From: Methylomarinovum caldicuralii
GTDB taxonomy: Bacteria; Pseudomonadota; Gammaproteobacteria; Methylococcales; Methylothermaceae
Assembly (NCBI RefSeq): GCF_033126985.1
Contig: NZ_AP024714.1
Span: 930,001-994,000, forward strand
Direction: 5' to 3'
DNA length: 64,000 nucleotides
Shown here: positions 14,341-62,623 of the stretch, one piece after another
Layout of the letters: every line of letters begins with the position of its first letter
Position numbering within the stretch: the first letter of the stretch is position 1
Translations under genes and position numbers: made by a program
The notes under the pieces: generated by a model
Database searches by the model: none
What the model saw: the letters and a program-made list of their open reading frames with translations, nothing else
Told to the model about the DNA's origin: nothing

Positions 14341-14356
14341 TGTCAGAGGCAAACGA

Positions 14357-14376
14357 AACCCCGCCGCGGCGGGGTT
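14357..14376. terminator. Bidirectional terminator hairpin
   Basis: AACCCCGCCG and CGGCGGGGTT form a perfect 20-base palindrome 16 bases after the scaffold gene's stop and 5 bases before the end of the convergent rpmG. The poly-U tail is weak on both sides, so efficiency is uncertain. Confidence 0.65.
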
Positions 14377-14381
14377 CGAGG

Positions 14382-14537
14382 TCATTTGATCTTGGCTTCC
14401 CGGAAGATCACGTGCTTGCGCACCACTGGATCGTACTTCTTGAATTCCAGTTTGTCCGGCGTGTTGCGCTTGTTCTTGGTGGTGGTGTAGTAGTAGCCGG
14501 TGCCGGCGCTGGACACCAGTTTGATCTTTTCGCGCAT
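14382..14537 (-). CDS. rpmG: 50S ribosomal protein L33
   Basis: 51 residues, reading [22 protein letters not shown] and ending REAKIK. This matches the zinc-free form of bL33, since the CxxC pairs of the zinc-type paralogue are absent. It follows rpmB on the same strand, the normal rpmB-rpmG operon. AAGGAG ribosome-binding site upstream. Confidence 0.97.
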
Positions 14538-14561
14538 GGCTTAACTCTCCTTATGGCCTGA

Positions 14562-14798
14562 TCAGATCTTGACGCCGCGCTGGCGCATTTCCGCAAGCAC
14601 GGTGTCGATGCCCTTCTTGTCGATGATGCGCATGCCCTGGCTGGAAACCCGCAGGCGCACCCAGCGACCCTCGCTTTCCACCCAGAACTTGCGGGTGTGC
14701 AGGTTCGGCAGGAAGCGGCGCTTGGTCTTGTTGTTGGCGTGGGAGACGTTGTTGCCGGTCATGGGACGTTTGCCCGTCACTTGACATACTCTGGACAT
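14562..14798 (-). CDS. rpmB: 50S ribosomal protein L28
   Basis: 78 residues: [33 protein letters not shown], then HTRKFWVES and [18 protein letters not shown], the standard bL28 sequence. First gene of the rpmB-rpmG pair and divergent from gshB. Part of the large ribosomal subunit near the peptidyl-tRNA exit region. Confidence 0.97.
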
Positions 14799-14922
14799 TT
14801 CTAAACCCCGATATACCCAGTCGATTCAAACGAGCAATTCTAGCGCAAGTTGGGGTGCGGAGCAAAAAACGGAAAGTGTTATCATGGAACGCCCCCGATC
14901 AACACGGAATGCGAACGAGACG

Positions 14923-15882
14923 ATGACCGCCGCGAGGATCAAGCTGGGGATCGTGATGGATCCGATCCAGAACATCAACATCCACAAGGACAGCAGCTTC
15001 GCCATGCTGCTGGAGGCCCAGGCGCGGGGCTGGGAACTCGCGTACATGGAACTGGGCGATATGTATCTGCGCGACGGCCGCACCTTCGCCCGCATGCGCC
15101 GTCTTGCGGTCAGGCGCGATCCACAACGCTGGTATGCGTTTGAGGACGAAACGGTGCAGCCCCTGGACTGCCTGGACGTGATCCTGATGCGCAAGGATCC
15201 GCCCTTCGACCAGGAATACATCTACGCCACCTATCTGCTCGAGTGCGCCGAACAAAAGGGGGTTCTGGTGGTCAACAAACCCCAGAGCCTGCGTGACGCC
15301 AACGAAAAGCTGTTCACCGCCTGGTTTCCCCAGTGCTGCGCCCCCACCCTGGTGGCCCGCGATCCGCAGCGTTTCCGCGCTTTCCTGGCCGAGCAGGGGG
15401 AAATCATCATGAAACCCCTGGACGGCATGGGCGGTGCCTCGATTTTCTACCTGCATCCGGCCGATCCCAATGTCAGTGTCATCCTCGAAACCATGACCCG
15501 CCACGGCAGCCGCTTCGTGATGGCCCAGCGCTATCTGCCCGAAATCAAGGACGGCGACAAACGCATCCTGCTGATCGATGGCGAGCCGGTTCCCTACGCT
15601 CTGGCGCGGATTCCCGCCCAAGGGGAACTGCGGGGCAATCTGGCCGCCGGCGGCCGGGCCGAGGGCCGGCCCCTGAGCGACCGCGACCGTTGGATCTGCA
15701 GCCAGGTGGGGCCGGAACTTAGCCGCCGTGGTCTGATCTTCGCCGGCATCGACGTGATCGGCGATTATCTCACCGAGATCAACGTCACCAGCCCCACCTG
15801 CATTCAGGAATTGGATAAACTATTTGGACTGAACCTCAGCGCCCAGTTGATGAACGAAATCGAGGCCCGTTTGTCCCCATGA
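14923..15882 (+). CDS. gshB: Glutathione synthetase
   Basis: 319 residues from the ATG at 14923, which puts IKLGIVMDPIQNINIHKDSS at the same distance from the start as in E. coli GshB; an ATG at 14884 with GGAAAG in front would add 13 residues. ATP-grasp signatures are present: LMRKDPPFDQEYIYATYLLE, IIMKPLDGMGGASIF (ATP-binding lysine and glycine loop), GDKRILLIDGEPV and the C-terminal EINVTSPTCIQELD. It joins gamma-glutamylcysteine and glycine. The stop overlaps the tonB start, opening a run of tightly spaced genes to pyrC'. Confidence 0.95.
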   Translation: MTAARIKLGIVMDPIQNINIHKDSSFAMLLEAQARGWELAYMELGDMYLRDGRTFARMRRLAVRRDPQRWYAFEDETVQPLDCLDVILMRKDPPFDQEYIYATYLLECAEQKGVLVVNKPQSLRDANEKLFTAWFPQCCAPTLVARDPQRFRAFLAEQGEIIMKPLDGMGGASIFYLHPADPNVSVILETMTRHGSRFVMAQRYLPEIKDGDKRILLIDGEPVPYALARIPAQGELRGNLAAGGRAEGRPLSDRDRWICSQVGPELSRRGLIFAGIDVIGDYLTEINVTSPTCIQELDKLFGLNLSAQLMNEIEARLSP

Positions 15883-48431: not shown

Positions 48432-49598
48432 ATGCGTATTTGGATCTGGCTCGGTTTGTTGTGGAGCGGTTGGGTGGCGGCGGAGGTGTATCAACCCTCG
48501 CCGCTGACCGCCGGCTGGCATCTGGAAACAGGGAAGCTGTTTTGCCGCCTGAGTCAGACGGTCGAAGATCTGGGAACGGTGGCCTTCGAGCAGCGGGCCG
48601 GCAAGCCGCTGCGTTTCTGGTTGCAATTGGCACACGAACCCCGGGTGGTGGACGCCGGCCTTCAGATCCATCCCGCACCCTGGCAGCACCGTTACCTGCC
48701 CGGTCGGCGTTACGCCGTCGACCGCATCGAAACGGCGGGAACCTTGGGCCGGCGCCTGGTGGTGGAAGGGGCTGTCGCCGAGCAGATGCTGGCGGCGGTG
48801 CATGCAGGCCGCTTTCCCCGCTTCGATTACCGCCGCCCCTGGGGAAACGTGCTCAGCGAGGCCCAGGTCAGCGTGTCGGCGGTGCGGTTCTGGGAGCGCT
48901 ATCCCGATTTTCAGAACTGCCGCGCCAAGCTGCCGCCCTACAGTCTGGATGACTTCACAGATCTGCAGTATTACTTCCGCGAGCAGCAGGTAGAGCTGCC
49001 GCCGGCGGCCCGTACCCGCCTGTCCCAGCTGGCGGATCTGCTCCAGCGGCTGGGCAAGGGGCAGGTGGTGGTCAGGAACGTCACCGCCGGGGCCGGCAAG
49101 GCGGCCGAAAGCTGGTTCCGGAAGCGGTTTCTCCGGGTGCGGCGCTGGCTTCAGTCCCAGGGGCTGACGGCCGATTGGGTCACTACCGGCAAGGCCCGCG
49201 GCAAACCGGTGGTGGAGATCCGCCTGTTCGGCCCCGAGGGGTTGCGCCTGTACCACTACGGCCGCCGCCAGAGCCGGCTCACGGCCGCCCAGCGCCGCCG
49301 GCTCGATCTGTTGGCCCGTTATGTCAACGAATTCTTTCCCGGCCAGCTCGTCATCCACGGTTACAGCGACGGTGCCCGCTGGCGCAGCGAGCGCACCAAT
49401 CTGGCGCTGTCGCGCCGCTGGGCCGAGCGCATCCGTGATTATCTGGCCGGACGCGGGGTGGCGCCGCAGCGGATGACGGTCAAGGCCTGGGGATCGCGCC
49501 ACCGGGTCGCCAGCAATTTGACCAAAGCCGGGCAGGCCAAGAACCGGAGAGTGTGGATCGATTTCGACGAGAGGCCGTTACCGGGCGCCGGGCGCTGA
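48432..49598 (+). CDS. motY: MotY-like flagellar stator-associated protein with tandem OmpA-like domains
   Basis: 388 residues with a signal peptide (about 1-17). The N-terminal domain (LFCRLSQTVEDLGTVAFEQ, PPYSLDDFTDLQYYF) follows MotY of Vibrio and Pseudomonas, and AARTRLSQLADLL begins the usual peptidoglycan-binding domain. In normal MotY (about 290 residues) the protein ends after one such domain; here a first, degenerate copy (about 190-270) is followed by a second with LVIHGYSDGARWRSERTNLALSRRWAERI and AKNRRVWIDF. It would form part of the T-ring around the basal body that holds stators. It is not linked to the filament operon 11 kb away. Confidence 0.85.
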   Translation: MRIWIWLGLLWSGWVAAEVYQPSPLTAGWHLETGKLFCRLSQTVEDLGTVAFEQRAGKPLRFWLQLAHEPRVVDAGLQIHPAPWQHRYLPGRRYAVDRIETAGTLGRRLVVEGAVAEQMLAAVHAGRFPRFDYRRPWGNVLSEAQVSVSAVRFWERYPDFQNCRAKLPPYSLDDFTDLQYYFREQQVELPPAARTRLSQLADLLQRLGKGQVVVRNVTAGAGKAAESWFRKRFLRVRRWLQSQGLTADWVTTGKARGKPVVEIRLFGPEGLRLYHYGRRQSRLTAAQRRRLDLLARYVNEFFPGQLVIHGYSDGARWRSERTNLALSRRWAERIRDYLAGRGVAPQRMTVKAWGSRHRVASNLTKAGQAKNRRVWIDFDERPLPGAGR

Positions 49599-50366
49599 TC
49601 CGGCTTCGAGCCAGGATCTGGCCAGGGCCAGATCTTCGGGGGTGTCGATGTCCACCGCCGCCTCCGGGTGTTCCAGAATCACGAAACGGACCCGGATGCC
49701 GAGCTTCTTTTCCACCTGTCGGGCCACCTCTGCGGTGGTCAGCCGGCCCAGCAGATAACGCACCAGCGTGACCGCCCCCAGTTCCCGGATGAGGCGCCAG
49801 GGGCGTTTGCGCTGTTGTTCCAGACGGCGCCAGAAGTGGACGAACTCCCGTCCTTTGGGGGTGAGAAAGGCGAACAGATTGCAGGTGCAGAAGGGGCCGT
49901 CGGCGAAGCGCAGGGCGGTGCGCCGCACGCCTGGAAAGCGCCGGACCACCAGCCGATGCGGGACCAGGCCGACGGCCAGATCGACGCCGCTGTCCTGGGC
50001 GCGGCGGCAGAATTCCGTGAACACTGCGGAATCGGGAAAGGCCAGGTCCGAGGTGGTCAGCAGCACCGGCTGCCGGGGCGGGACGGTTTCCATGCCGCGC
50101 CAGGCGCTGAGGGAGGGGGAAGCGGCGGGCGGCAGCCAGCGCAGGGGTTTGATGCTGTTTAAGGCGTGCCGGCGCCAGATGGTTTCGGCCGGCCCGACGA
50201 GGACGATGGCCTCGATGAGCGGGCAGCCTTCCAGGGCCGCCAGCACCCGCGCCAGCAAGGGGGCGCCGGCGAGCGGCACCAGGCTCTTGCAGGGAGCCCC
50301 GGCGGCCGCGGCGACCGGGTTGGCCCGTTCACGGTCGGCGGCGAGAACGACAGCGTGCCAGTTCAT
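49578..50366 (-). CDS. Nucleotidyltransferase (MobA/GlmU-like), sphingolipid cluster
   Basis: 262 residues. N-terminal sugar-nucleotidyltransferase pattern WHAVVLAADRER...KSLVPLAGAPLLARVLAAL, LLTTSDLAFPD in place of the catalytic Asp motif, and a C-terminal VDIDTPEDLALARSWL. Family members load NTPs onto sugars, phospho-alcohols or molybdopterin. Placed upstream of the GNAT gene in a ceramide cluster, it may activate a polar head group for the sphingolipid (inference). The 3' end overlaps motY by 21 bases, convergently. Confidence 0.75.
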   Translation of the reverse strand: MNWHAVVLAADRERANPVAAAAGAPCKSLVPLAGAPLLARVLAALEGCPLIEAIVLVGPAETIWRRHALNSIKPLRWLPPAASPSLSAWRGMETVPPRQPVLLTTSDLAFPDSAVFTEFCRRAQDSGVDLAVGLVPHRLVVRRFPGVRRTALRFADGPFCTCNLFAFLTPKGREFVHFWRRLEQQRKRPWRLIRELGAVTLVRYLLGRLTTAEVARQVEKKLGIRVRFVILEHPEAAVDIDTPEDLALARSWLEAGSAPGAR

Positions 50367-50377
50367 GGTGCCGGTGA

Positions 50378-50482
50378 GCGGGCCGGGATGCCGCTTTTCG
50401 GGGTGTATACGGCCCGGACGGCCGTGTCCAAGTCCCCAGGGACGGGTTCACGACGTCCCCGAAAAGCGGTGTTCCGGCCCGC
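50378..50482 (+). repeat. Palindromic element copy 4 (core subtype A)
   Basis: Arms 50378-50403 and 50457-50482 are complementary at 23 of 26 positions. The 53-base core has ATACGGCC-CGGAC-GGCCGTGT (one G-T pair) and GGGACG-(9 nt)-CGTCCC stems and is homologous to the reverse strand of copy 1. It occupies the gap between the GNAT gene and the nucleotidyltransferase gene, so it would be in their common transcript. Confidence 0.85.
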
Positions 50483-50508
50483 TGACGGAGGTGATGCGGG
50501 TGGGAAAT

Positions 50509-51639
50509 TCATGCCAGCGACTTCTGGTAGATCCGGTAACGTTTGTCGATCCCGGCCCCCAGGCTTTCGATGATGCCGCGGATGCGCCGGTTGTCCTCCA
50601 GAATCCACGACAGCTCCATGAACCGCATCCCGTGGCGCAGTACCGGCTCGCGCAGGGCATCCACCAGCAGATAGGCGATGGCGGCGCCCATCAGGCTCTG
50701 GCGCTGGGATTTGCGGATGCCCATCAGGATCACCCGGCCGCTGTCGGGCGGCTGGGATTTCCAGCGCCACAGCAGTTTGAGCCAGTTGAGCGGCAGCAGG
50801 CGGCCGTCGAGCCCGGCCAGCAGCTGGTTCAGGTTGGGAATGGCGACGATCATCCCCACCGCCTCGCCCCGGTATTCAGCGATCTGGACGAAGTCGTCGG
50901 CGACGATGTGTTTGAGCGTCCCGGCCATTTCCGCGAATTCTTCCCGGGTGAAGGGCACGAAGCCCCAGTTGTCGGACCAGGCGTCGTTGAAGATGTCGCG
51001 CAGCAGCTCGAATTCCTCCAGCAGGCGCCGGCGCCTGAGGGGACGGACCCGGATTTCCCCGGCCGCCTTGGCCGCCAGCCGCCGGACTGCGGCGGAAAAT
51101 TCGACATCGGTTTCGAGACGGTAGGCAAGCAGATCCTTGGCCTTGGCATAACCGAGGGCTTCGATCCGGTCGGCGTAATAGGGCGGGTTGTAGGGCATCA
51201 TCACCATCGGCGGCTTGTCGAAGCCTTCCACCAGCAGCCCGCAGTCGTGGTTGATGGAGAGGTTGAACGGCCCCCGCACCGCCGTCATCCCCGCCTCCCG
51301 CAGCCAGGTTTCCGCCTGTCCCAGCAGGGCCTCGAACACCGCCGGATCGTCGACGGCCTCGAGCAGGCCGAAAAAGCCGGTCCGGTCATCGTGCCGCTCC
51401 AGATAGAGCCGGTCGATCTGGGCGCTGATGCGGCCCACCGGTTCCCCGTCGCGCAGCGCCAGCCAGCCCTGCCAGCGGGCGTGGCGGAAATAGGGATTCT
51501 GCGGGGAAAGATGCTGGCGGCGTTCCAGCTCCAGGGGGGCGATCCAGTGGGGGTTGCCGCCGTGGAGGCGGTGGGGGAGACGGAGGAACCGTGTCAGATC
51601 CTTGGGATGGGTGACGGGAAGTAATCGCAGGGTGGTCAC
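50509..51639 (-). CDS. GNAT-fold acyltransferase, candidate bacterial ceramide synthase
   Basis: 376 residues; an N-terminal region FLRLPHRLHGGNPHWIAPLELERRQHLSP and a GNAT-like C-terminal half (FVQIAEYRGEAVGMIVAIPN, MGIRKSQRQSLMGAAIAYLLV, MELSWILEDNRRIRGIIESLGA). Proteins of this class, annotated as N-acetyltransferases of about 380 residues, sit next to serine palmitoyltransferase in many Gram-negatives, and one such protein in Caulobacter crescentus acylates the long-chain base to ceramide. That role is proposed here from context and family resemblance. Divergent from the ligase-spt operon; precedes the nucleotidyltransferase gene on its strand. Confidence 0.8.
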   Translation of the reverse strand: MTTLRLLPVTHPKDLTRFLRLPHRLHGGNPHWIAPLELERRQHLSPQNPYFRHARWQGWLALRDGEPVGRISAQIDRLYLERHDDRTGFFGLLEAVDDPAVFEALLGQAETWLREAGMTAVRGPFNLSINHDCGLLVEGFDKPPMVMMPYNPPYYADRIEALGYAKAKDLLAYRLETDVEFSAAVRRLAAKAAGEIRVRPLRRRRLLEEFELLRDIFNDAWSDNWGFVPFTREEFAEMAGTLKHIVADDFVQIAEYRGEAVGMIVAIPNLNQLLAGLDGRLLPLNWLKLLWRWKSQPPDSGRVILMGIRKSQRQSLMGAAIAYLLVDALREPVLRHGMRFMELSWILEDNRRIRGIIESLGAGIDKRYRIYQKSLA

Positions 51640-51757
51640 GGACGGGGTGTTGTATCGTTGCCTTAATGAGACGGTTGATTGTTTATTAGCAACAGGCTAT
51701 CCTTGAGGCCAAGTATTTCGGTGACCTTCACGGGGTGCTCAGGGCTTTGCCCCGTGC

Positions 51758-51787
51758 TTGTCTCCGAATTGACGTCGGTGCTATGAT
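51758..51787 (+). promoter_or_regulatory. Candidate promoter of the ceramide operon
   Basis: TTGTCT (51758-51763), 18 bases, then TATGAT (51782-51787), in the 270-base AT-rich gap between the divergent GNAT and ligase genes. The start would be near 51794 with a leader of about 115 bases. A hairpin CACGGGG...CCCCGTG (51729-51757) lies just upstream. The rest of the gap shows no gene. Confidence 0.45.
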
Positions 51788-51908
51788 GTTTTTTACCCAT
51801 AGGTTACCTGGCTTTCGCGTGAAAGCAACCAAAAACGACAGATAACAAGGACACCTGCCTTCGCTGTTGTTGCGAAACGCCAACCGGTTTTTATGGGCGG
51901 ATTGAAAC

Positions 51909-53675
51909 GTGAATGAAACAGGGGAGAGGCTCTTGGGTGCTCAAGCTACGCCTACCGAGAATACGTTGCCGCTGCGGCGGGCAGATTTTTCGACTTTAGC
52001 CGACGCGCTGGATTACGCCGCGCAGGGGCAGACCGGCTGCAACTTCTACAACGGCCGTGGGGAGCTGTACGAGGTTCTGCCGTATTCCAAACTGCGAGAG
52101 CAGGCCCTCGAGCTGGCCCGGCGTCTGGCCGGACTGGGGCTGCCGCGGGAGTCGCGTCTCGCTCTGGTGGCGGAGACCACCCCGGATTTCCTCCGCTTCT
52201 TCTTCGCCTGTCAATACGCCGGTCTGGTGCCGGTGCCGTTGCCCATCCCTTTCAGCCTCGGCAGCCACGAGGCTTACGTGCGCCAACTGCGGGCGATGCT
52301 GCAAAGCTGCCTTCCGGCGCTGGCGATGGCGCCGGTCAGTTTCATCTCCTTCCTCACCGAGGCTGCGGCAGGGCTCGATCTCGAGTTTTTCGGCGCCCCG
52401 GAGGATTTCTACCGCCTGCCCTACGGCAACGCCGAACCGAAGCCGCTCGAGCCCGATGAACTGGCCTACCTCCAGTACACCTCCGGAAGCACCCGCTTTC
52501 CGCGCGGGGTCATGATCCGCCAGGCGGCGGTGATGGACAACCTGGCGGGAATCGCCCAGCACGGTGTCGATCTGCGTCCCGGGGACCGGGCGGTGTCCTG
52601 GCTGCCGTTCTACCACGACATGGGGCTGGTGGGGCTGATGCTGACGCCGGTGGCGTCCCAGGTGTCGGTCGATTACCTGGGAACCCGCGAGTTCGCCATG
52701 CGGCCGCGTCAGTGGCTGGCGCTGATGTCCAGGAACAAGGCGACGATTTCCTTCGGACCGCCGTTCGGTTACGAGCTGTGCACCCGCCGCCTGCGTCCCG
52801 GGGAGGCGGCCAAGTTCGATCTGAGCGCCTGGCGGGTGGCCGGCGTGGGGGCGGAGATGATCCGCACCGAAACCTTAAACCATTTCGCCGAGGCACTGGC
52901 GCCGGCGGGTTTCCGCGAAGAAGCGTTCCTGCCCTGCTACGGCATGGCCGAATGTTCCCTGGCCGTCTCCTTTGCGCCGTTGGCCGAGGGGGTCAAGGTC
53001 GATCGGGTCGACGGGGAAGTTCTGGCTCTGGAGGGGCGGGCGGTTCCGACCGGGGACGCCGAGCGGGTCAACGAATTCGTCGACTGCGGCGTGCTGCTGC
53101 CCAGTTTCGAGATGCGGATTCTCGATGCCGACGGCAACGAGGTGGGCGAGCGCCGCATCGGCACCATCCACCTGCGCGGCCCGAGCGTGATGTCCGGCTA
53201 TTTTGAGGATCCGGAAACCACCGAGGCGGTGCTTTCCAATGACGGCTGGCTCAATACCGGCGACCTCGGCTACGTGGCCGATGGTCGCTTGTACCTGACC
53301 GGGCGGGCCAAGGATCTCATCATCGTCAACGGCCGCAACATCTGGCCGCAGGATCTGGAATATCTCGCCCACCGCCAGCCCGAGGTGCGTCCCGGTGACG
53401 CCCTGGCCTTCGGGGTGCCGGATGCGGACGGCGACCGGGTCATCCTGGTGGTACAGTGCCGCGAGACCGACGAGGCCAAACGCGCCGATCTGGTGCGGCG
53501 CATCCGCTCCCAGGTGCAGGCGGAGATCGGTGTCGACTGCACCGTGGAGCTGGTGCCGTTGCACACCCTGCCGCGGACGTCCTCTGGCAAGCTGTCGCGT
53601 TCCAAGGCCCGGGAAAATTACATCACCCAGCACGGCCTGGTCCAGTCCAAGGGGCAGCGTGCTGCCGCCCTCTGA
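51909..53675 (+). CDS. Fatty acyl-AMP/acyl-ACP ligase of the sphingolipid cluster
   Basis: 588 residues from a GTG. ANL-superfamily adenylation motifs: YTSGSTRFPRGVMI (P-loop), LPFYHDMGLVGLML, PCYGMAECSLAVSFAP, GWLNTGDLGYVADGRLYLTGRAKDLIIVNGRNIWPQDLE and LPRTSSGKLSRSKAREN with the catalytic Lys. The HDMGL and GRNIWPQD signatures are those of fatty-acyl-AMP ligases that load an acyl carrier protein instead of CoA. Together with the small ACP downstream it would supply the acyl-ACP substrate for serine palmitoyltransferase, as the acyl-ACP synthetase does in Caulobacter. First gene of a five-gene operon. Confidence 0.9.
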   Translation: MNETGERLLGAQATPTENTLPLRRADFSTLADALDYAAQGQTGCNFYNGRGELYEVLPYSKLREQALELARRLAGLGLPRESRLALVAETTPDFLRFFFACQYAGLVPVPLPIPFSLGSHEAYVRQLRAMLQSCLPALAMAPVSFISFLTEAAAGLDLEFFGAPEDFYRLPYGNAEPKPLEPDELAYLQYTSGSTRFPRGVMIRQAAVMDNLAGIAQHGVDLRPGDRAVSWLPFYHDMGLVGLMLTPVASQVSVDYLGTREFAMRPRQWLALMSRNKATISFGPPFGYELCTRRLRPGEAAKFDLSAWRVAGVGAEMIRTETLNHFAEALAPAGFREEAFLPCYGMAECSLAVSFAPLAEGVKVDRVDGEVLALEGRAVPTGDAERVNEFVDCGVLLPSFEMRILDADGNEVGERRIGTIHLRGPSVMSGYFEDPETTEAVLSNDGWLNTGDLGYVADGRLYLTGRAKDLIIVNGRNIWPQDLEYLAHRQPEVRPGDALAFGVPDADGDRVILVVQCRETDEAKRADLVRRIRSQVQAEIGVDCTVELVPLHTLPRTSSGKLSRSKARENYITQHGLVQSKGQRAAAL

Positions 53676-53678
53676 AGC

Positions 53679-54611
53679 GTGACGGCCCCGGCGCCTTTGA
53701 TCGCGCTGACCGGTGCCAGCGGCTTCATCGGCCGCTGGATCGCCCGCCATCTGGTTGCCGCCGGATGGCGGGTTCGCGTTTTGGTGCGCCCCGGCTCCGA
53801 GTCCAGGCTGCCCGCCGGTCTTCCACTGCTGCGGCACCGGGGCACGTTGACCGCACCGGAGGGGCTGGCGGCCTTCGTCGCCGGCGCGCAGGCGGTGGTT
53901 CACTGCGCCGGGCAGGTGCGCGGCATCACGCCGGCGGATTTCGAGGCCGTCAACGTCGCCGGAACCCGGCATCTGGCCGCTGCCGCCGCCAGAGCGAAGG
54001 TGCGCCGTTTCGTGCTGATTTCGTCCCTGGCGGCCCGGGAGCCCCATTTGTCTCCTTATGCCGCCAGCAAGCGCGCGGGGGAGGAGGTGATTTCAGCGTT
54101 CGGCCAGGCGTTCTCGTCTTTGGCGCTGCGGCCGCCGGCGGTGTACGGGCCCGGTGACCGGGAGATGCGTCCGTTGTTGGAGGCGATGGCGCGGGGCTGG
54201 ATTCCCGTCCTAAGCGATCTGAGTGCCCGTTTCTCCCTGCTCTACGTCGAGGATCTGGCCCGGGCGGTGGCGGCGGCGGTGCGGAGCGACGCCGAGGGGG
54301 TGTTCGAACTGGACGACGGCCGTCCCGGCGGTTACGGCTGGCACGAGGTGCAGGCCATCGCCGCCGCCTACCGTCAGGGGAAGGCCCGTCTGCTGCCAGT
54401 GCCCGAAGCCTGGTTACGGACCGTGGCCAGGATCAGCCTGGGCCTTGCCAGGCTGAGCGGGCGCCTGCCGATGCTGACCCCGGCCAAGGTCAACGAGTTA
54501 CGCCACCCGGACTGGGTGTGCGACAATACCCGGATCTGTCAGGTCCTCGACTGGCGTCCCCAGGTGGATTTCGCCACCGGGTTGCCCCGGACCCTGGCGT
54601 CACCGGCTTGA
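53679..54611 (+). CDS. cerR: NAD-dependent epimerase/dehydratase, candidate ceramide reductase
   Basis: 310 residues from a GTG four bases after the ligase stop. Extended-SDR features: IALTGASGFIGRWIARHL, VVHCAGQVRG, VNVAGTRHLAAAA, active-site YAASKRAGEEV (Tyr and Lys) and ALRPPAVYGPGD. In Caulobacter an enzyme of this class encoded in the spt cluster reduces the 3-keto group of the ceramide precursor; the same step is proposed here from position and family. Acting on a lipid rather than a nucleotide sugar cannot be shown from sequence alone. Confidence 0.82.
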   Translation: MTAPAPLIALTGASGFIGRWIARHLVAAGWRVRVLVRPGSESRLPAGLPLLRHRGTLTAPEGLAAFVAGAQAVVHCAGQVRGITPADFEAVNVAGTRHLAAAAARAKVRRFVLISSLAAREPHLSPYAASKRAGEEVISAFGQAFSSLALRPPAVYGPGDREMRPLLEAMARGWIPVLSDLSARFSLLYVEDLARAVAAAVRSDAEGVFELDDGRPGGYGWHEVQAIAAAYRQGKARLLPVPEAWLRTVARISLGLARLSGRLPMLTPAKVNELRHPDWVCDNTRICQVLDWRPQVDFATGLPRTLASPA

Positions 54612-54631
54612 ACTGCAACGACCGACATGCC

Positions 54632-54877
54632 ATGAAGACCTATCAACAAGTACTCGAAGAACTGCTGCAGACTCTCCGCACTCTGGTCCCCCAGGCGACG
54701 GAGATCGACGAGGACACCGAACTGGTGGGAAGCCTCGGCCTCGATTCCATGAAGGTGATGAACCTGCTCCAGGAAGTCGAGGACCATTTCGACGTCTCGA
54801 TTCCCCTGAATGTGCTCCCGGACGTGCGCACCGTCGGCGATCTGGCCCGCAAGATCCACCAGCAGCTGCAGGATTGA
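54632..54877 (+). CDS. Dedicated acyl carrier protein of the sphingolipid cluster
   Basis: 81 residues, acidic four-helix ACP with the 4'-phosphopantetheine attachment site in GSLGLDSMKVMNLLQEVED (Ser in LGLDSM). It differs from the housekeeping AcpP, whose site is ELGADSLDTVE. Standing between the reductase and spt, it is the presumed carrier of the acyl chain delivered to serine palmitoyltransferase, the AcpR of Caulobacter. Its stop overlaps the spt ATG. Confidence 0.92.
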   Translation: MKTYQQVLEELLQTLRTLVPQATEIDEDTELVGSLGLDSMKVMNLLQEVEDHFDVSIPLNVLPDVRTVGDLARKIHQQLQD

Positions 54878-56073
54878 TGAATCTCCTCGACAAGTTCAGG
54901 CCGCTCCAGGAGACCCGCAACCAGCTCAAGGCCCTCGGCGCCGACCCCTTCAACGTGGTGGTGGAGAAGATCCTTTCGCCCACCGAGGCGATCGTCAACG
55001 GTCACCGGGTGATCCTGGCCGGCACCAACAATTATCTGGGGCTGACCTTCCATCCCGAGTGCATCGAAGCGGCGGTCCGGGCGCTCCGCGAGGAAGGCTG
55101 CGGCACCACCGGTTCGCGCATGGCCAACGGCAACTACGCCGATCACCAGGCGCTGGAGCGGGAGTTCGCCGAATTTTACGGGCTTCCCTACGGCGTGGTG
55201 TTTTCCGCCGGTTACTTGGCCAATCTGGCGCTGCTCTCCACCCTGCCGGGGGCGGACGACGTCATTCTGATCGACGCCGACTGTCACGCCAGCATCTACG
55301 ACGGCTGCAAGATGAGCGCCGCCGAGGTGATCCGCTTCCGCCACAACGATGTCGCCGATCTGGACAAGCGCCTGCGCCGGCTCAAGGACCGCGCCCGGCG
55401 CGCCCTGGTGGTGGTGGAAGGGATCTACAGCATGTTCGGTGACCGCGCCCCCCTGCGGGAGATCGTCGAGGTCAAGGACCGCTACGGCGCCTTCCTCATG
55501 GTGGACGAGGCCCATTCCCTCGGGGTGCTGGGCGAGCAGGGCCGGGGACTGGTGGAGGCGGAAGGGGTGATCGAACGGACGGACTTCATCGTCGGCACCT
55601 TCAGCAAGAGCCTGGGTGCCATCGGCGGCTACTGCGTCAGCCCCCACCAGGCCCTCGACACCCTGCGTTACGCCGCCCGGCCCTACATCTTCACCGCTTC
55701 CTCCTCACCGGCCCAGATCGCTTCCACCCGGGTCGCCCTGCACCTGCTGCGGGACGGCCGGGAACTGCGCCGGCGTCTGTGGGACAACGCCGAGCGTTTC
55801 TACGACGGCCTCAAGGCGCTGGGCTGCACCCTGGGCCCGCAGCTCAGCCCGGTGGTGCCGGTGATTCTGAGCGAGGACCGGGGCGATTCGCTGGCGCTGT
55901 GGAAGGCGCTGCTCGAACGCGGCGTGTACGTCAACCTGGTGATGCCGCCGGCCACCCCCGACCACCGCTGCCTGCTGCGCTGCAGCATGAGCGCCGCCCA
56001 CACGCCGGCGCAGATCGACCGCCTGCTCGACACCTTCGCCCAAGTGTTCGCCGCCCACGGCCTGACCGCCTGA
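54877..56073 (+). CDS. spt: Serine palmitoyltransferase
   Basis: 398 residues from the ATG at 54877. It is an alpha-oxoamine synthase with the PLP lysine in GTFSKSLGAIGG and the blocks CGTTGSR, HASIYDGC, VDEAHSLG, RPYIFTAS and YVNLVMPPATP-RCSMSAAHTPAQI. The last three, especially RPYIFTAS and PPATP before a C-terminal RCS-x-x-x-HTPAQI, recall the soluble Sphingomonas enzyme rather than KBL or BioF. It condenses L-serine with an acyl thioester to 3-ketosphinganine, the first step of sphingolipid synthesis. The neighbouring ACP suggests acyl-ACP as donor. Confidence 0.92.
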   Translation: MNLLDKFRPLQETRNQLKALGADPFNVVVEKILSPTEAIVNGHRVILAGTNNYLGLTFHPECIEAAVRALREEGCGTTGSRMANGNYADHQALEREFAEFYGLPYGVVFSAGYLANLALLSTLPGADDVILIDADCHASIYDGCKMSAAEVIRFRHNDVADLDKRLRRLKDRARRALVVVEGIYSMFGDRAPLREIVEVKDRYGAFLMVDEAHSLGVLGEQGRGLVEAEGVIERTDFIVGTFSKSLGAIGGYCVSPHQALDTLRYAARPYIFTASSSPAQIASTRVALHLLRDGRELRRRLWDNAERFYDGLKALGCTLGPQLSPVVPVILSEDRGDSLALWKALLERGVYVNLVMPPATPDHRCLLRCSMSAAHTPAQIDRLLDTFAQVFAAHGLTA

Positions 56074-57803
56074 TGCGCCTGCTGCTCCGCTTCCTGCGCG
56101 CCTATCCCCACCAGAGCCTGATCGTGCTGGTCGCTCTGGTGCTGGCCGGTCTGGTGGAAGGCGTGAGCATGACTGCGCTGCTGCCGATGCTGAGTTCGGT
56201 GGTGGAAAGCGGCGGTGCGCTGGAAATGGAGGCCGACGGCAAAGCGGCCTATCTCCTTAAGGCATTGCAATGGGTGGGTCTGCCCCTGACCCTGGGGGTG
56301 CTGATCGTCGTCCTGGTGGTGGGCACGGTGTTGCGCAGCGGATTGGTGCTGGTGGCCAAGAAGTACGTCGGTTACACCATCGCCCAGGTGGCGACGGATC
56401 TGCGCCTGCAGCTGCTCGACGCCCTGCTCAAGGCCAAGTGGAACTTCTACCTTGGATTGCCGCTGGGGACGCTGGCCAACGCCATGTCCACGGAGCCCAA
56501 CCGGGCGTCGATGGCGTATTTTCACGGCACCAACATGCTGGCCGCCGCCATTCAGGCGTTCGCCTACGTGGCGGTGGCGCTGACGGTCTCCTGGACGGCG
56601 ACGCTGGCTTATCTGGGCGGGGCGGTGGTGGTCCTGGCCATCCTGCAGTTCTTCGTGCGCATGGCAAAAAAGGCCGGCAAACGCCAGACCCGGGTGCTCA
56701 AAGCCCTGCTGCGCCAATTGACCGATTGCCTGCAGTCGGTCAAGCCGCTCAAGGCCATGGGCCGGGAGGAGCTGGCCGACCGCGTGATCGCCAGCGAAAC
56801 CAAGCGCCTCAACAAAGCGCTGCAGAAGGAAGTGTTGAGCAAGGAAGCGCTGAAGGCGGTGCAGGGCCCGGCATTCCTGGGGCTGGTCAGCGGCGGTTTC
56901 TACGTCGGTTACGTGCTGTGGCACATGCCGACGGCCGAGGTGATGGTGCTGCTGATCCTGCTCAGCCGGGTGCTGTCGGCCATGGGCCGGATGCAGCGCA
57001 TGCACCAGAACATGGTCAGCTGCGAAAGCGCCTACTGGTCCCTGCTCGGCACCATCGAGGAGGCACGGCGCGCGGTCGAGCCGACCGGGGGCGAGCGCCG
57101 GCCGACCTTGTCCCGGGGCATCGCGCTGGAGGATGTCCATTTCGCCTACAAGCGCCGCCCGGTGCTGCAGGGGTTGTCTTTGGTCATTCCCGCCGGGGAG
57201 CTGACGGCCCTGATCGGTTTTTCCGGCGCCGGCAAGACCACGGTGGTGGATCTGGTCACCGGCCTGCTTCGTCCCCAAAGCGGGCGGATTCTCATCGACG
57301 GCGTCGATCTAGTCGAAATCGATCTCCATGCCTGGCGGCGCCTGATCGGTTACGTGCCCCAGGAGAACCTGCTGCTGCACGACACCGTTCTCACCAATGT
57401 CACTTTCGGTGATCCCGGGCTCACCGCAGCCGATGCCGAGTGGGCCCTGAAGGCGGCGGGCGCCTGGGAGTTCGTCAGCCGTCTGCCGGAGGGGATGCAG
57501 ACGGTCGTGGGCGAGCGCGGCGCGCGGCTGTCCGGCGGTCAGCGCCAGCGCATCATGATCGCCCGCGCCCTGGCGCACCGGCCCAGACTGCTGATTCTCG
57601 ACGAGGCCACCAGCGCCCTCGATCCCGAAACCCAGCGCGCCATCTGCCGCACCCTGCAGGATCTGAAACAGGCGTACGCGCTGACCATTCTGGCCATTTC
57701 CCACCAGCCCAGCATCGTCGAAATCGCCGACCGCGTCTATCAGCTGGAGAAGGGGAAGGCGCGTCTGCTGGAGGCCCCCAAGGCGGTCGCCGTCCTCGGT
57801 TAG
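56073..57803 (+). CDS. ABC transporter, MsbA-like lipid exporter, sphingolipid cluster
   Basis: 576 residues: a six-helix transmembrane domain (about 1-320) fused to an ATPase domain with Walker A IGFSGAGKTTVVDL, Q-loop YVPQENLLLHDT, signature LSGGQRQRIMIARAL, Walker B LLILDEATSALD and H-loop AISHQPSIVEIA. The half-size fusion and coupling to spt (overlapping stop and start) make flipping of ceramide or a ceramide derivative across the inner membrane the likely job. It could instead be an unrelated lipid or peptide exporter. Its end overlaps the convergent Hsp70 gene by four bases. Confidence 0.87.
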   Translation: MRLLLRFLRAYPHQSLIVLVALVLAGLVEGVSMTALLPMLSSVVESGGALEMEADGKAAYLLKALQWVGLPLTLGVLIVVLVVGTVLRSGLVLVAKKYVGYTIAQVATDLRLQLLDALLKAKWNFYLGLPLGTLANAMSTEPNRASMAYFHGTNMLAAAIQAFAYVAVALTVSWTATLAYLGGAVVVLAILQFFVRMAKKAGKRQTRVLKALLRQLTDCLQSVKPLKAMGREELADRVIASETKRLNKALQKEVLSKEALKAVQGPAFLGLVSGGFYVGYVLWHMPTAEVMVLLILLSRVLSAMGRMQRMHQNMVSCESAYWSLLGTIEEARRAVEPTGGERRPTLSRGIALEDVHFAYKRRPVLQGLSLVIPAGELTALIGFSGAGKTTVVDLVTGLLRPQSGRILIDGVDLVEIDLHAWRRLIGYVPQENLLLHDTVLTNVTFGDPGLTAADAEWALKAAGAWEFVSRLPEGMQTVVGERGARLSGGQRQRIMIARALAHRPRLLILDEATSALDPETQRAICRTLQDLKQAYALTILAISHQPSIVEIADRVYQLEKGKARLLEAPKAVAVLG

Positions 57804-60559
57804 GCGATCAGTTTCAGTCCCGGTGGCAGGGCTTCGCCGAACAGGCGCTGTTCGTCCTCCGCCGACAGCTCCACCACCTCGCTCACCATCGCGATCCACG
57901 AAGCCGGCGCCTTGGCCTGTTTGAGCCGGGCGATGACGGCCTCGCGCAGCTGAGGGTCCACGTCGCGGCTGCGGTCGCCGCAGCGCCGCGCCAGCAGGGC
58001 GGCGGCAAAGCCCAACAGCGGTCGTTTCCGGAAATCCATCGTCAGCAGTTGCCGCAGCCAGTCCTCCACTTCCTCGCGGGGGACGCAGTTGTGGGCGCTG
58101 CCGTAGAAGGGCATCCGGCTTCCCACCCGTCCCAGGGCCCAGGCGGTCTGTTCCGGTTCCCGGGGATTCTGCAGGCGTTTGAGCAGCCAGCGGCCCAGTT
58201 CGGTCTTGGTGCTTGCGGGCAGGTGCTCCAGCACCGCCGCCAGGCGGACGATGTTTTCGTAGCTGCGCTGCTTGCTCAAGGTGGCGAGCTTGCCCTTGCG
58301 GGATTTGACCGGATCGAGGTAGTCGCGAATGTCGGCGTAGAGGGTTTCCTGGGCATGGGCGGGGAGACCGCCGGCGAGGCGGCGCCAGAAGGTCCACCAC
58401 TCGGCCCAGTTCTGGATCACGTTGACGAACTGGAGTCCCGCGGCATACAGGGGCCAGAGCTGATCGATGCGCCAGTCGTCCAGGGGATAACCGAAGCCGG
58501 GACGCAGGCAGAAACCGGTCAGGCCCAGCCAGGCGCGCTCGTGTTCGGCGCTGCGGCGGCGGAACCTGCGTCCTTCCACCAGCGCATCGGCCAGCTCCCG
58601 CAGCAGGGGCATGTCCCAGCGCTGCCGCGGTCCCAGACGCTTTTCCAGTTCCGCGCGCAGGCTTTTGACCAGCCTGGGGGAAACGTCCCGGGATTTCTTG
58701 CCGAAGACCTGGCGGATCAGTCCCAAGGCCTCCTCCAGGTGGGGATGGGAAGCGTCCTGAAGCTTGTGGCTGAGGGGTTGGCGGCGCAGTTCGAAGGTCA
58801 GCTGCCAGCGCTTTTCCGGATCGTCCACGGCGACGCAGTCCAGTTCCAGGGTGCCAACTTCGGTGAGTCGGGCGGCGAGGCGGACCTGAATCTCGCCCTG
58901 GTCTTCCCCGGCCAGCGCCAGCACCAGCGGGGGCAGGGAGGTGAAGCGCTCGCTGTCCAAGGGCAGGACCTCCCCCGGGACGGGGGTGATGTCGTCGCTG
59001 GTAGCGACCAGATGGAAGCGTACCGGACGGCCCAGGCGCAGCGCGAACCGGCGGTCCTGGAGGAGGATTTCCCGCTCCTCCTCGGCGCCGCGGGGCAGCA
59101 GGCATACTCCCTGGGGCTGACCGGTTTCGCTTTCCACCACCAGAAAGTAACTGCGGGGCGAGCCGCCGCCGATCCTGGGTTGCAGCCCGCGGCGGGCCAG
59201 GCCGTAGGCGACCGCCCCGGCGGCGACGGCGAAATCCGGATGGGGATTGTCGAGCCGGCGGATGGGCGTCCGTCCCCAGCGGGAAACCACCGCCAGCAGG
59301 CGTTCGGTGATGACCGGGCTCAGGAACACCCCGCCGTTGAGGAGAATGGCGTCAGGGACCGGTTCGGCCGCCTCGTCTCCCAACGCCTGAGCAGCGGCCC
59401 GGCGGTGGTGGCTGAGGAAGGCGGCGATGTGGCGGGTGACCGCCGGATCGGCCACATAGGGCAGGCCGAATTCCACCAGGCCGCTGCGGACCCCTTCCGG
59501 GTGATCCCGGAGCGAGACTTCGGGGAAGAAGCCGTCGAGGACGATGCGGCGGACCTCCTCGCGGGTGAAAGTGACCGAGCGGGCCGCGCCGATCAGCCTG
59601 CGGCCGCCGCCGAGGACGGTGACCGTGGCGCTGTCGGGGCTGTCTGTGGCCAGCAGGCGCTCCTTGGCCAGGCGGCACTGTTCCACCAGCTGGGCGAACT
59701 CGGCCGGGGACAGTTTGTGGCCCTGGTCGAGCAGGTGTTCCTCGGCCAGATGCGCGAGCATCAGGTCGATGTTGTCGCCTCCCAGGAGCAGATGGTCGCC
59801 GATGCCGATGCGGGTCAGTTCGGGCTGGCCGTCGCCGGGAGCGATGGCGATCAGGGTCAGGTCGGTGGTGCCGCCGCCCAGATCCACCACCAGCAGCAGG
59901 CGGCGGTCGGCGATGGGGGACAGATCGCCGCGGTGGCGGTGGAGCCAGTCGTAACACACCGCCTGGGGTTCCTCCAGCAGGCGGATGCGGGAAAGACCGG
60001 CCTGGCGGGCTGCCTCCACGGTCAGCGTGCGGGCGGCCTCGTCGAAGGAGGCCGGCACGGTGATGACGACCTCCTGGTTCTCCAGCGGGTGGTCGGGGAA
60101 GCGGTAGTTCCAGGCGCCGCGTACGTGGGCCAGGTAACTGGCGCTGGCGGTCAGGGGGGAAACCTTGGGCACCTCCGGCGGCGATCCCCAGGGCAGGATG
60201 TCGGCCAGACGGTCGACCCCCTCGTTGCACAGCCAGCTCTTGGCGCTGGTGACCAGGCGGCCGAGGGATTTGGCCCCCAGGCGGCGGGCCAGTTCGCCGA
60301 TCACGGGGTGCGGCACCGGGTCGCCGATGTCCACCGGCGGCCAGGGCAGGCGGATTTCCTCCGGGTTCAGCTCCCCTTCCGCTGGATGATAGCGCACCGA
60401 GGGCAGCAGCGGCCGCTCCGCCAGTTCCCCGGGGGCGATGAGCTGGGGAATGGCGAAGCGTTCCATCGGCGCCTCGGTGCCGCGGGACAGGTCGGTGTAG
60501 GCGACCAGGGTGTGGGTGGTGCCCAGGTCGATGCCGACCAGATAGCGGGGGTTGGCCAT
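57800..60559 (-). CDS. Hsp70-like protein with long C-terminal domain (DUF3731 type)
   Basis: 919 residues, far longer than DnaK (about 640). The actin-like ATPase core is intact: YLVGIDLGTTHTLVAY (phosphate 1), LLLVVDLGGGTTDLTLIAI (phosphate 2), ILLNGGVF (adenosine), with TVPASFDEAARTLTVEAAR and LLEEPQAVCYDWL. Instead of a DnaK substrate-binding domain and lid, about 450 residues of helical, Trp-rich sequence follow (WAEWWTFWRRLAGGL, LARRCGDRSRDVDPQL), which I recall as the DUF3731 architecture. Clients and co-chaperones are unknown. Last gene of a three-gene operon with a second Hsp70 and a DUF2760 protein. Confidence 0.9.
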   Translation of the reverse strand: MANPRYLVGIDLGTTHTLVAYTDLSRGTEAPMERFAIPQLIAPGELAERPLLPSVRYHPAEGELNPEEIRLPWPPVDIGDPVPHPVIGELARRLGAKSLGRLVTSAKSWLCNEGVDRLADILPWGSPPEVPKVSPLTASASYLAHVRGAWNYRFPDHPLENQEVVITVPASFDEAARTLTVEAARQAGLSRIRLLEEPQAVCYDWLHRHRGDLSPIADRRLLLVVDLGGGTTDLTLIAIAPGDGQPELTRIGIGDHLLLGGDNIDLMLAHLAEEHLLDQGHKLSPAEFAQLVEQCRLAKERLLATDSPDSATVTVLGGGRRLIGAARSVTFTREEVRRIVLDGFFPEVSLRDHPEGVRSGLVEFGLPYVADPAVTRHIAAFLSHHRRAAAQALGDEAAEPVPDAILLNGGVFLSPVITERLLAVVSRWGRTPIRRLDNPHPDFAVAAGAVAYGLARRGLQPRIGGGSPRSYFLVVESETGQPQGVCLLPRGAEEEREILLQDRRFALRLGRPVRFHLVATSDDITPVPGEVLPLDSERFTSLPPLVLALAGEDQGEIQVRLAARLTEVGTLELDCVAVDDPEKRWQLTFELRRQPLSHKLQDASHPHLEEALGLIRQVFGKKSRDVSPRLVKSLRAELEKRLGPRQRWDMPLLRELADALVEGRRFRRRSAEHERAWLGLTGFCLRPGFGYPLDDWRIDQLWPLYAAGLQFVNVIQNWAEWWTFWRRLAGGLPAHAQETLYADIRDYLDPVKSRKGKLATLSKQRSYENIVRLAAVLEHLPASTKTELGRWLLKRLQNPREPEQTAWALGRVGSRMPFYGSAHNCVPREEVEDWLRQLLTMDFRKRPLLGFAAALLARRCGDRSRDVDPQLREAVIARLKQAKAPASWIAMVSEVVELSAEDEQRLFGEALPPGLKLIA

Positions 60560-60562
60560 GGG

Positions 60563-62623
60563 TTACTTTTTGAACGGCCAGAAACCGGCCTTGCGCTCCC
60601 GCTCTTCCCGTTCCTCGGCGGTCTCCTCCCGGGGCGGTGCTGCTCCGGCGGGCGTTTCTTCCGCCGGTGTCTCTGCCGCCGTTTCCTCGGATTCCGACTC
60701 GGCCGGCGGGGTTTCCTCCACCGCTTCGGCGATCACCGCCTCCGACACCGGCGATTCCGGCGCCTGGGGCTGGGCCGGCAGTTCCTGGCCGCGGACGTCG
60801 AATTCGATCTTCCAGCGTTCGCCGGTATCCTTGGCCACCGCCTCGAGGCGCAAGGTGCCGACTTCGGTATAGGTGGCAACCAGGTTCACCGGCACCACTT
60901 CACCGGGCTTGCGGTTCTCCGGCGGCAGGGTGATCTCGATTTCCGCCAGCTCCTGGATTTCGTCCTCGGACCACTGGTCGATCAGGGCGCCGACCGGGTC
61001 GTCGCGGCGCACGGTGGATGCGAAGAAGCGGAACCGCACGGGCTCGCCCACCACCAGGCCGAATTCGTAGGGGGGCAGGGGGGCTTCGGTGCCTTCCTCC
61101 ATGCCGAAGGGAGCGACGCACAGCAGCCGGATCGGCGGCGGGAAGCCGGGAACCGCCGGCATGGCGCTTTCGACGCCCACGTAGTAGGTGGCCGCGGTGC
61201 CGCCGCGGATCCTGACCCCGCCGCCCAGGCGCACGTAGCTGTAATAGGCCGCGCCGCGGGCCACCGCCAGGTCCAGGTCGGCCCCTTCCAGCAGCCGGGC
61301 CTCCGGGGCGCCGTCGGTCTGCAGCCAGTGGTTGACCGCCTCCAGCACCCGCTGGGCGAGAATGTCGGCCTTGAACACCCCGCCGTTGAGCAGGATGGCC
61401 GAGGGATGGATGAAGCGGGCGCCTTCAGGGACGCTGACGTCCTTCAGCTCGTCCACCGCCCCCACCTGGCGGGTGAGGAAGTGGGCCAGATGGACGGTGA
61501 TGCGGGCATCCTGGGCGTAGGGCAGCCCCAAGGTGGTCAGGCCGGTGCGCGGGCGCGAGACCGGTTTTTCGTCGATGGAAACGATGGGGAAGAAGCCGTC
61601 GATCAGGGTGCGCTGGACTTCCTCGCGGGTCAGCTCCGTGCGCAGGGTGCCGCCGATGAGTTTGGAACCACGGCTGGGCACCACCACCGGCACCGCCTGC
61701 AGCTCGGGATCGGCCAGCAGCTTCTCCTTGGCTTCGCGGCAGCCGTGGGTCAGGGCATGGATCTGCCAGGGGTCGAGGCGTTTGCCCTCCTGCTCCAGCT
61801 TCATCTTCACCACGTAGGCCAGGGCCAGGTCCATGTTGTCGCCGCCCAGGAGGATGTGGTCGCCGACGGCCACGCGTTCCAGCTGCAGATTGCCGTCTTC
61901 CTCGGTGACGGCGATGAGCGACAGGTCGGTGGTGCCGCCGCCCACGTCCACCACCAGGATGATGTCGCCCACGTGGACCTTTTCGCGCCACTGCCCTTCG
62001 CTGAGCTGGATCCAGCTGTACAGGGCCGCCTGGGGTTCCTCCAGCAGTACCGCCTGCGCCAGGCCCGCCTCGCGGGCGGCTTCGGCAGTCAGCTCGCGGG
62101 CGGCCGGGTCGAAGGAAGCGGGGACGGTGAGGACCAAATGCTGTTCCTCCAGAGGCGCGTCCGGATGGAGATGGTTCCAGGCGTCGCGCATGTGCTGGAG
62201 GTACTCCAAAGAGGCCTGATAGGGCGATACCCGCGGGACTTCCTCCGGAGCCTCGATGGGCAGGAAGGCTTCCTTGGGATTGACCCCGGCGTGGCACAGC
62301 CAGCTCTTGGCGCTTGAAACCAGGCGGATCGGGGTCTTGCTGCCCAGCTCGCGGGCGAGGACCCCGACGATGTGTTCGACGTTCTCGCGCCAGGGCAGCA
62401 CCCTGTCTTCCGGCCGCAGTTCGTCCGGATGGGGCAGATACAGGAAGGAAGGCAGCTGACGCCGTTCCTCCACCTCCCCCGGGGCGATCAGCTGGGGGAT
62501 GCCCATGGGTTCGACCGGCGCCAGATCGCGGTCGCACTTTTCCAGGTCGGTCCAGGCGACCACGCTGTTGGTGGTGCCCAAGTCGATGCCGACGGCGTAG
62601 CGTTTGTCGTTCTGATCGCTCAT
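60563..62623 (-). CDS. Hsp70 family protein, paralogue with acidic tail
   Basis: 686 residues. ATPase core with YAVGIDLGTTNSVVAW, IILVVDVGGGTTDLSLIAV, AILLNGGVFKADI; close to its neighbour in the first 420 residues, so the two arose by duplication and then diverged. The C-terminal part has a beta-rich region (VNLVATYTEVGTLRLEAV, shared with the neighbour) and an Ala/Glu/Pro-rich acidic tail ending GFWPFKK. It is neither DnaK nor HscA by length and tail. Its ATG overlaps the stop of the DUF2760 gene and its stop lies three bases from the next ATG. Confidence 0.9.
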   Translation of the reverse strand: MSDQNDKRYAVGIDLGTTNSVVAWTDLEKCDRDLAPVEPMGIPQLIAPGEVEERRQLPSFLYLPHPDELRPEDRVLPWRENVEHIVGVLARELGSKTPIRLVSSAKSWLCHAGVNPKEAFLPIEAPEEVPRVSPYQASLEYLQHMRDAWNHLHPDAPLEEQHLVLTVPASFDPAARELTAEAAREAGLAQAVLLEEPQAALYSWIQLSEGQWREKVHVGDIILVVDVGGGTTDLSLIAVTEEDGNLQLERVAVGDHILLGGDNMDLALAYVVKMKLEQEGKRLDPWQIHALTHGCREAKEKLLADPELQAVPVVVPSRGSKLIGGTLRTELTREEVQRTLIDGFFPIVSIDEKPVSRPRTGLTTLGLPYAQDARITVHLAHFLTRQVGAVDELKDVSVPEGARFIHPSAILLNGGVFKADILAQRVLEAVNHWLQTDGAPEARLLEGADLDLAVARGAAYYSYVRLGGGVRIRGGTAATYYVGVESAMPAVPGFPPPIRLLCVAPFGMEEGTEAPLPPYEFGLVVGEPVRFRFFASTVRRDDPVGALIDQWSEDEIQELAEIEITLPPENRKPGEVVPVNLVATYTEVGTLRLEAVAKDTGERWKIEFDVRGQELPAQPQAPESPVSEAVIAEAVEETPPAESESEETAAETPAEETPAGAAPPREETAEEREERERKAGFWPFKK

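Follow-up and report, generated by a model that had tools for sequence, protein, structure and literature searches.

Seven genes of Methylomarinovum caldicuralii IT-9T, at positions 49578-57803 of the 64,000-nucleotide stretch analysed here (the window), are best explained as the ceramide-backbone part of a phosphosphingolipid pathway, and we give this explanation as a whole a probability of about 0.75. The host, a cultured hot-vent methanotroph of the Methylothermaceae, is a type strain with a complete single-contig genome. A nucleotidyltransferase and a GNAT acyltransferase are encoded on the minus strand and, divergent from them, a fatty acyl-AMP/acyl carrier protein (ACP) ligase, a short-chain dehydrogenase/reductase (SDR), an ACP, a serine palmitoyltransferase (SPT) and an ABC exporter on the plus strand. 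An earlier note on this DNA had described just such a tight operon with two divergent genes, and all of the reading frames were found in the interval with the families it gave them. The ceramide core is of an already known kind, including its gammaproteobacterial version; the linkage to an exporter, the division between three loci and a missing kinase are what set this variant apart.

In the pathway that we infer from gene content and family membership, the ligase would charge the dedicated ACP with a free fatty acid, SPT would join the acyl-ACP with serine to give 3-oxosphinganine, the GNAT protein would N-acylate this product and the SDR would carry out the reduction to (dihydro)ceramide. 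The ABC exporter would flip ceramide or a phosphorylated form of it over the inner membrane, the nucleotidyltransferase and CpgA-, CpgC- and CpgD-like enzymes would build a phosphoglycerate-type head group through CDP-alcohol chemistry, and a second LptF/LptG pair would carry the lipid to the outer membrane.

The polar lipids of IT-9T are listed as consisting mainly of an unknown aminophospholipid and unknown phospholipids (PMC10950024), which makes the prediction checkable by one lipid extract of the type strain. That these lipids are sphingolipids is only a hypothesis, since the nearest relative, the Methylothermaceae methanotroph M. tepidoasis IN45T, carries the same locus and has mainly phosphatidylserine together with several unknown phospholipids (PMC10950024). 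If the reading is true, methanotrophs would join the likely sphingolipid makers, with a bearing on lipid biomarkers of methane oxidation.

Probable ceramide-backbone genes and their distribution

The SPT (54877..56073, +), taken as one of the proteobacterial (Rhodobacteria-type) enzymes, scores 617 bits on the NCBI equivalog model NF047599, for which the cut-off is 500, and its best match in the Protein Data Bank (PDB) is the bacterial SPT 2x8u (E=1e-125). Alignment to 2x8u and a motif check found the FSKS lysine and the DEAH, HASIY, PPATP and LLRCS motifs retained, and with them the pyridoxal phosphate lysine, its His and Asp partners, the PATP loop and the LLRCS arginine. Directly upstream of spt lies acpR (54632..54877, +; Pfam PP-binding E=1.9e-12), which has its phosphopantetheine serine within a DSM motif (DS at residues 38-39). 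The nearby aasR (51909..53675, +) encodes an AMP-binding protein that reaches 833 bits on the model for the PRK09192 fatty acyl-AMP ligase (NF006624, cut-off 600), is 49% identical to the ligase adjoining E. coli spt and would load the fatty acid on the ACP. Between these two genes an extended SDR of the NAD-dependent epimerase family and CerR type (53679..54611, +; Pfam Epimerase E=2.5e-31) carries GASGFIG and YAASK motifs, is 42% identical to the SDR of the E. coli cluster and is a putative oxo-ceramide or 3-oxosphinganine reductase.

The GNAT protein (50509..51639, -) matches no Pfam family. Its predicted structure is a tandem-GNAT fold with a predicted local distance difference test score (pLDDT) of 86 and a PDB match to 5kf1 (E=7e-15), and its identity is 46% to E. 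coli YghO and 40-45% to the proteins that occupy the syntenic position in alphaproteobacteria. We regard it as a putative ceramide synthase of the bCerS/YghO type. Model scores, gene order and this fold thus bear out the proposal that the locus holds a Caulobacter-type set of SPT, ACP, ligase, reductase and GNAT protein plus an exporter, and the cluster very probably encodes ceramide backbone synthesis.

The full order, nucleotidyltransferase-GNAT and, divergently, ligase-SDR-ACP-SPT-ABC, is found on a single contig in 8 genomes of the genus (that of IT-9T included), in most of them with the same flanking genes, and the fragments seen in two further draft genomes agree with it, so that the arrangement is not due to chance. 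Across the order, an SPT above the cut-off is present in 12 of 301 genomes, and among 61 relatives searched the GNAT protein is almost confined to SPT-bearing genomes. One SPT match, in genome G501 (L223:13890-15055), falls into two pieces (13890-14117 and 14126-15055), which looks like a frameshift or an assembly error.

The earlier note called sphingolipids little studied in gammaproteobacteria of this kind, but the gammaproteobacterial version is not new. E. coli B/BL21 has these five genes, yghO and aasR, cerR, acpR and spt, identically ordered and oriented and with proteins 42-54% identical to those of Methylomarinovum, and the SPTs of BL21 and of S. wittichii have been assayed with acyl-AcpR (PMC9386255); it is on these grounds that we call the core a known kind. 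A match to spt is present in 4,000 of 5,426 complete E. coli genomes; at the E. coli locus read (L032), spt adjoins the glc operon, and yghO is the GNAT partner there. The E. coli cluster has its own second LptF/LptG pair, a YghQ-like flippase-type gene and adjoining P-loop kinases (yghS, yghT and a third), whereas the nucleotidyltransferase and ABC exporter of Methylomarinovum have no counterpart of their kind in the E. coli stretch read. Ceramide and head-group gene sets like that of Methylomarinovum have also been published for the gammaproteobacteria Azotobacter vinelandii and Pseudomonas luteola and the betaproteobacterium Nitrosomonas eutropha (PMC11324152).

A candidate sphingolipid exporter

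The last gene of the plus-strand unit (56073..57803) encodes a type IV ABC exporter half-transporter with ABC_membrane and ABC_tran domains and intact Walker A, LSGGQ and Walker B motifs, which we regard as a candidate sphingolipid flippase. In Caulobacter, SPT and bCerS are cytoplasmic while CerR is periplasmic, and the field's position in 2024 was that bacterial sphingolipids had no known flippase or transporter (PMC11087976). The candidate flippase of Caulobacter is CC_1166, in place of which Methylomarinovum has the ABC exporter. An ortholog of CC_1166 is reported absent from the A. vinelandii, P. luteola and N. eutropha clusters, for which the text of the paper gives no ABC exporter of the Methylomarinovum kind (PMC11324152). 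Our literature search, whose coverage left out most subscription journals, found no paper naming this exporter.

Three observations link the exporter to the ceramide genes. Using the window proteins as queries (GNAT at E<=1e-20, ABC at E<=1e-75) in 369 gammaproteobacterial species, we found the GNAT protein in 24 and the ABC protein in 18, with both in 17, ABC only in 1, GNAT only in 7 and neither in 344 (Fisher p=7e-23, from counts that are not phylogenetically independent). The exporter is present in 11 of the 16 GNAT-bearing families, and the sole species with ABC only (G308) is represented by a 75% complete genome without GNAT or a clear SPT. Secondly, in eight genomes from five other families (G562, G546, G420, G635, G427, G504, G434 and G380) the ABC gene lies within the sphingolipid cluster or on its margin, adjoining SPT, LptG2 or GNAT. 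Thirdly, the cluster-linked ABC proteins form one clade in the tree (support 100/99) that excludes three other exporters of M. caldicuralii, though the outer branches are long.

The strongest alternative is that the protein, being MsbA- or HepA-like, serves as a general exporter of lipid A or polysaccharide and just happens to be encoded downstream of spt. Like MsbA, HepA and PglK it is a half-transporter with fused membrane and ATPase domains and has lipid exporters as relatives. Furthermore, no protein of the complete genome exceeds the NCBI MsbA cut-off (the best, at G000:C1:676056-677783, has 358 bits against 602), so some exporter must replace MsbA. Against this, the protein ranks only fourth in its own genome on the MsbA model (238 bits, behind 358, 332 and 295), its clade is absent from 344 of the 345 species without GNAT, most of them presumably makers of lipopolysaccharide, and its separate clade is tied to sphingolipid genes. 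Its scores are also below every curated cut-off seen, at 292 bits against 725 for HepA and 239 against 602 for MsbA. The candidate role as the MsbA of the genome was set aside on model scores, in-genome rank and co-occurrence, and we consider a general exporter in this position unlikely, though not strikingly so.

Some observations count against a sphingolipid role. Besides the shared ancestry behind the co-occurrence counts, the ABC gene is separate from the cluster in about half of the genomes that have both genes, which also favours a general exporter, and one family (f163) that has the cluster lacks both this ABC gene and any visible MOP flippase. A strict rule by which each cluster has either the ABC exporter or a MOP flippase is for this reason not upheld, the MOP proteins having been sought within clusters by a crude hydrophobicity screen. 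Flippase-type proteins do occur in other clusters: a flippase-like protein in an alphaproteobacterial one, YghQ in that of E. coli and a YghQ-like protein in G501. On balance we find it reasonably likely that the exporter acts on a sphingolipid, and a gene class that tracks ceramide genes over at least 11 gammaproteobacterial families would be a direct candidate for the ceramide inner-membrane flippase and may be a new part of the system.

Probable head-group and transport genes at two other loci

The earlier note counted the exporter and the nucleotidyltransferase as two extra genes. The exporter is still the least explained part of the cluster, while the nucleotidyltransferase is not an extra. 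This MobA/IspD-like protein (49578..50366, -; Pfam NTP_transf_3 E=3.5e-11) has a predicted fold (pLDDT 91.6) that best matches 2dpw in the PDB (E=1.6e-18) and then the CTP-using IspD. In clusters of alpha-, beta- and gammaproteobacteria, its gene is the immediate neighbour of GNAT, and a CpgD-like gene often follows. An alphaproteobacterial locus (L082) with the order spt, cpgC, cpgB, cpgA, phosphoesterase, lptF2, lptG2, cerS, nucleotidyltransferase comes close to the published order of Caulobacter. There CC_1153 adjoins cerS (CC_1154) and is needed for ceramide di-phosphoglycerate, its loss abolishing CPG2 (PMC11324152). Because of its place beside GNAT in all three classes and the near-Caulobacter order of the alphaproteobacterial locus, the nucleotidyltransferase is taken as a CC_1153-like gene of head-group activation.

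Searching the M. caldicuralii genome with cluster genes of other bacteria found two further loci. The second (G000:C1:1282356-1289652), which is conserved in most genomes of the genus, holds a second LptF/LptG pair (LptF2 and LptG2, G000:C1:1282356-1284550, PF03739), a metallophosphoesterase, a CpgC-like protein, a sulfotransferase, an OlsC-like acyl hydroxylase and an ELM1-like protein. The CpgC-like protein was assigned by homology to the alphaproteobacterial cluster gene, its Tam41 Pfam match being below the cut-off. The third locus (G000:C1, about 2416500-2420922) encodes a glycosyltransferase, a CpgA-like CDP-alcohol phosphotransferase, a CpgD-like nucleotidyltransferase and a protein that we read as TagF-like and that matches no Pfam or NCBIfam model. 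The description of the window cluster as complete therefore applies to the backbone and not to the whole pathway. The likenesses to the Caulobacter crescentus phosphosphingolipid region (CC_1168-CC_1152) are the ceramide core, the nucleotidyltransferase beside cerS, CpgA/C/D-like proteins, phosphoesterase and LptF2/G2, but in Methylomarinovum the genes are split over three loci and the CpgB-type kinase was not found.

From the CpgA-, CpgC- and CpgD-like genes and the second LptF/LptG pair, the product is probably a phosphoglycerate-type phosphosphingolipid that is sent to the outer membrane, and it is likely that a phosphosphingolipid head group of some kind is made. The opposing points concern the kinase and the gene names. 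An alphaproteobacterial CpgB query gave no match in any of 10 genomes of the genus. In M. caldicuralii DAGK_cat has a single match, which was considered as a ceramide kinase candidate and is a GGDGT-type protein that we read as an NAD kinase; orthology to the named Caulobacter genes is, moreover, based on gene order and families only. CpgB was likewise not seen in the clusters of G562 and G546, to which that search was confined, and its absence may therefore extend beyond a single genus.

A pathway that stops at ceramide or a glycosphingolipid, with the nucleotidyltransferase activating a sugar phosphate rather than phosphoglycerate, would fit the unfound kinase, the glycosyltransferase gene adjoining the CpgA/CpgD-like genes and a nucleotidyltransferase fold that also resembles GlmU. 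It is harder to square with a genome that has CpgA-, CpgC- and CpgD-like genes and the second LptFG all together, and with Caulobacter CpgD being a phosphoglycerate cytidylyltransferase (PMC12275187), and we think it improbable. Doubtful, too, is a bolder joint proposal, that the ABC protein is a dedicated sphingolipid flippase in much of the Gammaproteobacteria, replacing a MOP-type protein, and that the genus needs no CpgB-type kinase to make its phosphosphingolipid, a CpgA-like enzyme, for instance, moving phosphoglycerate from CDP-glycerate directly onto ceramide.

The sulfotransferase and OlsC-like hydroxylase genes (L166:12335-14186; G000:C1:1286334-1288185) are neighbours of the CpgC-like gene in G562 (L212) as well as in most of the genus, and the lipid may be sulfated and 2-hydroxylated. 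The sulfotransferase would also suit an oxoamine synthase with a different product (an amino-ketone or a 1-deoxy- or sulfono-lipid base) in a cluster making a non-ceramide lipid, and the family is mechanistically broad, with KBL, BioF, ALAS, CAI-1 synthase and cysteate acyltransferase all among the matches, but this is very improbable and was set aside on model scores (617 bits for SPT against 344 for BioF), a PATP loop and LLRCS motif that agree with solved SPTs and the company of ACP, ligase, SDR and GNAT, the known ceramide set. At L167:2836-4809, a long open reading frame beside an apbC/mrp-like gene looks like a dCTP deaminase that is interrupted by an intein-like HNH insert.

Gene layout and neighbouring genes

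The plus-strand genes are closely packed, with 3 bp between ligase and SDR, 20 bp between SDR and ACP, and TGATG overlaps at the ACP-SPT and SPT-ABC junctions. The ACP start was placed at the ATG at 54632. For SPT the ATG at 54877, overlapping the ACP stop in TGATG, is more likely to be the start than the TTG at 54874, and for the ABC gene the ATG at 56073, overlapping the SPT stop, was used and the mechanical reading-frame start at 55779 set aside. The 269 bp divergent intergenic region (51640..51908) presumably holds the promoters of both transcription units; a promoter and terminator scan of the locus gave nothing above shuffled sequences, with a single sigma-70-like match at 51758-51787 (+). 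The G+C content of the locus (0.66-0.68) is similar to that of the remaining window, and there is thus no sign of recent transfer.

Both flanks of the cluster are convergent with it and are kept in most genomes of the genus. Two tandem Hsp70-like genes (window 57800-62623) follow the ABC gene, whose stop overlaps the nearer of them by 4 bp, and on the other side a protein with MotY_N and OmpA domains (window 48432-49598) overlaps the nucleotidyltransferase gene by about 20 bp.

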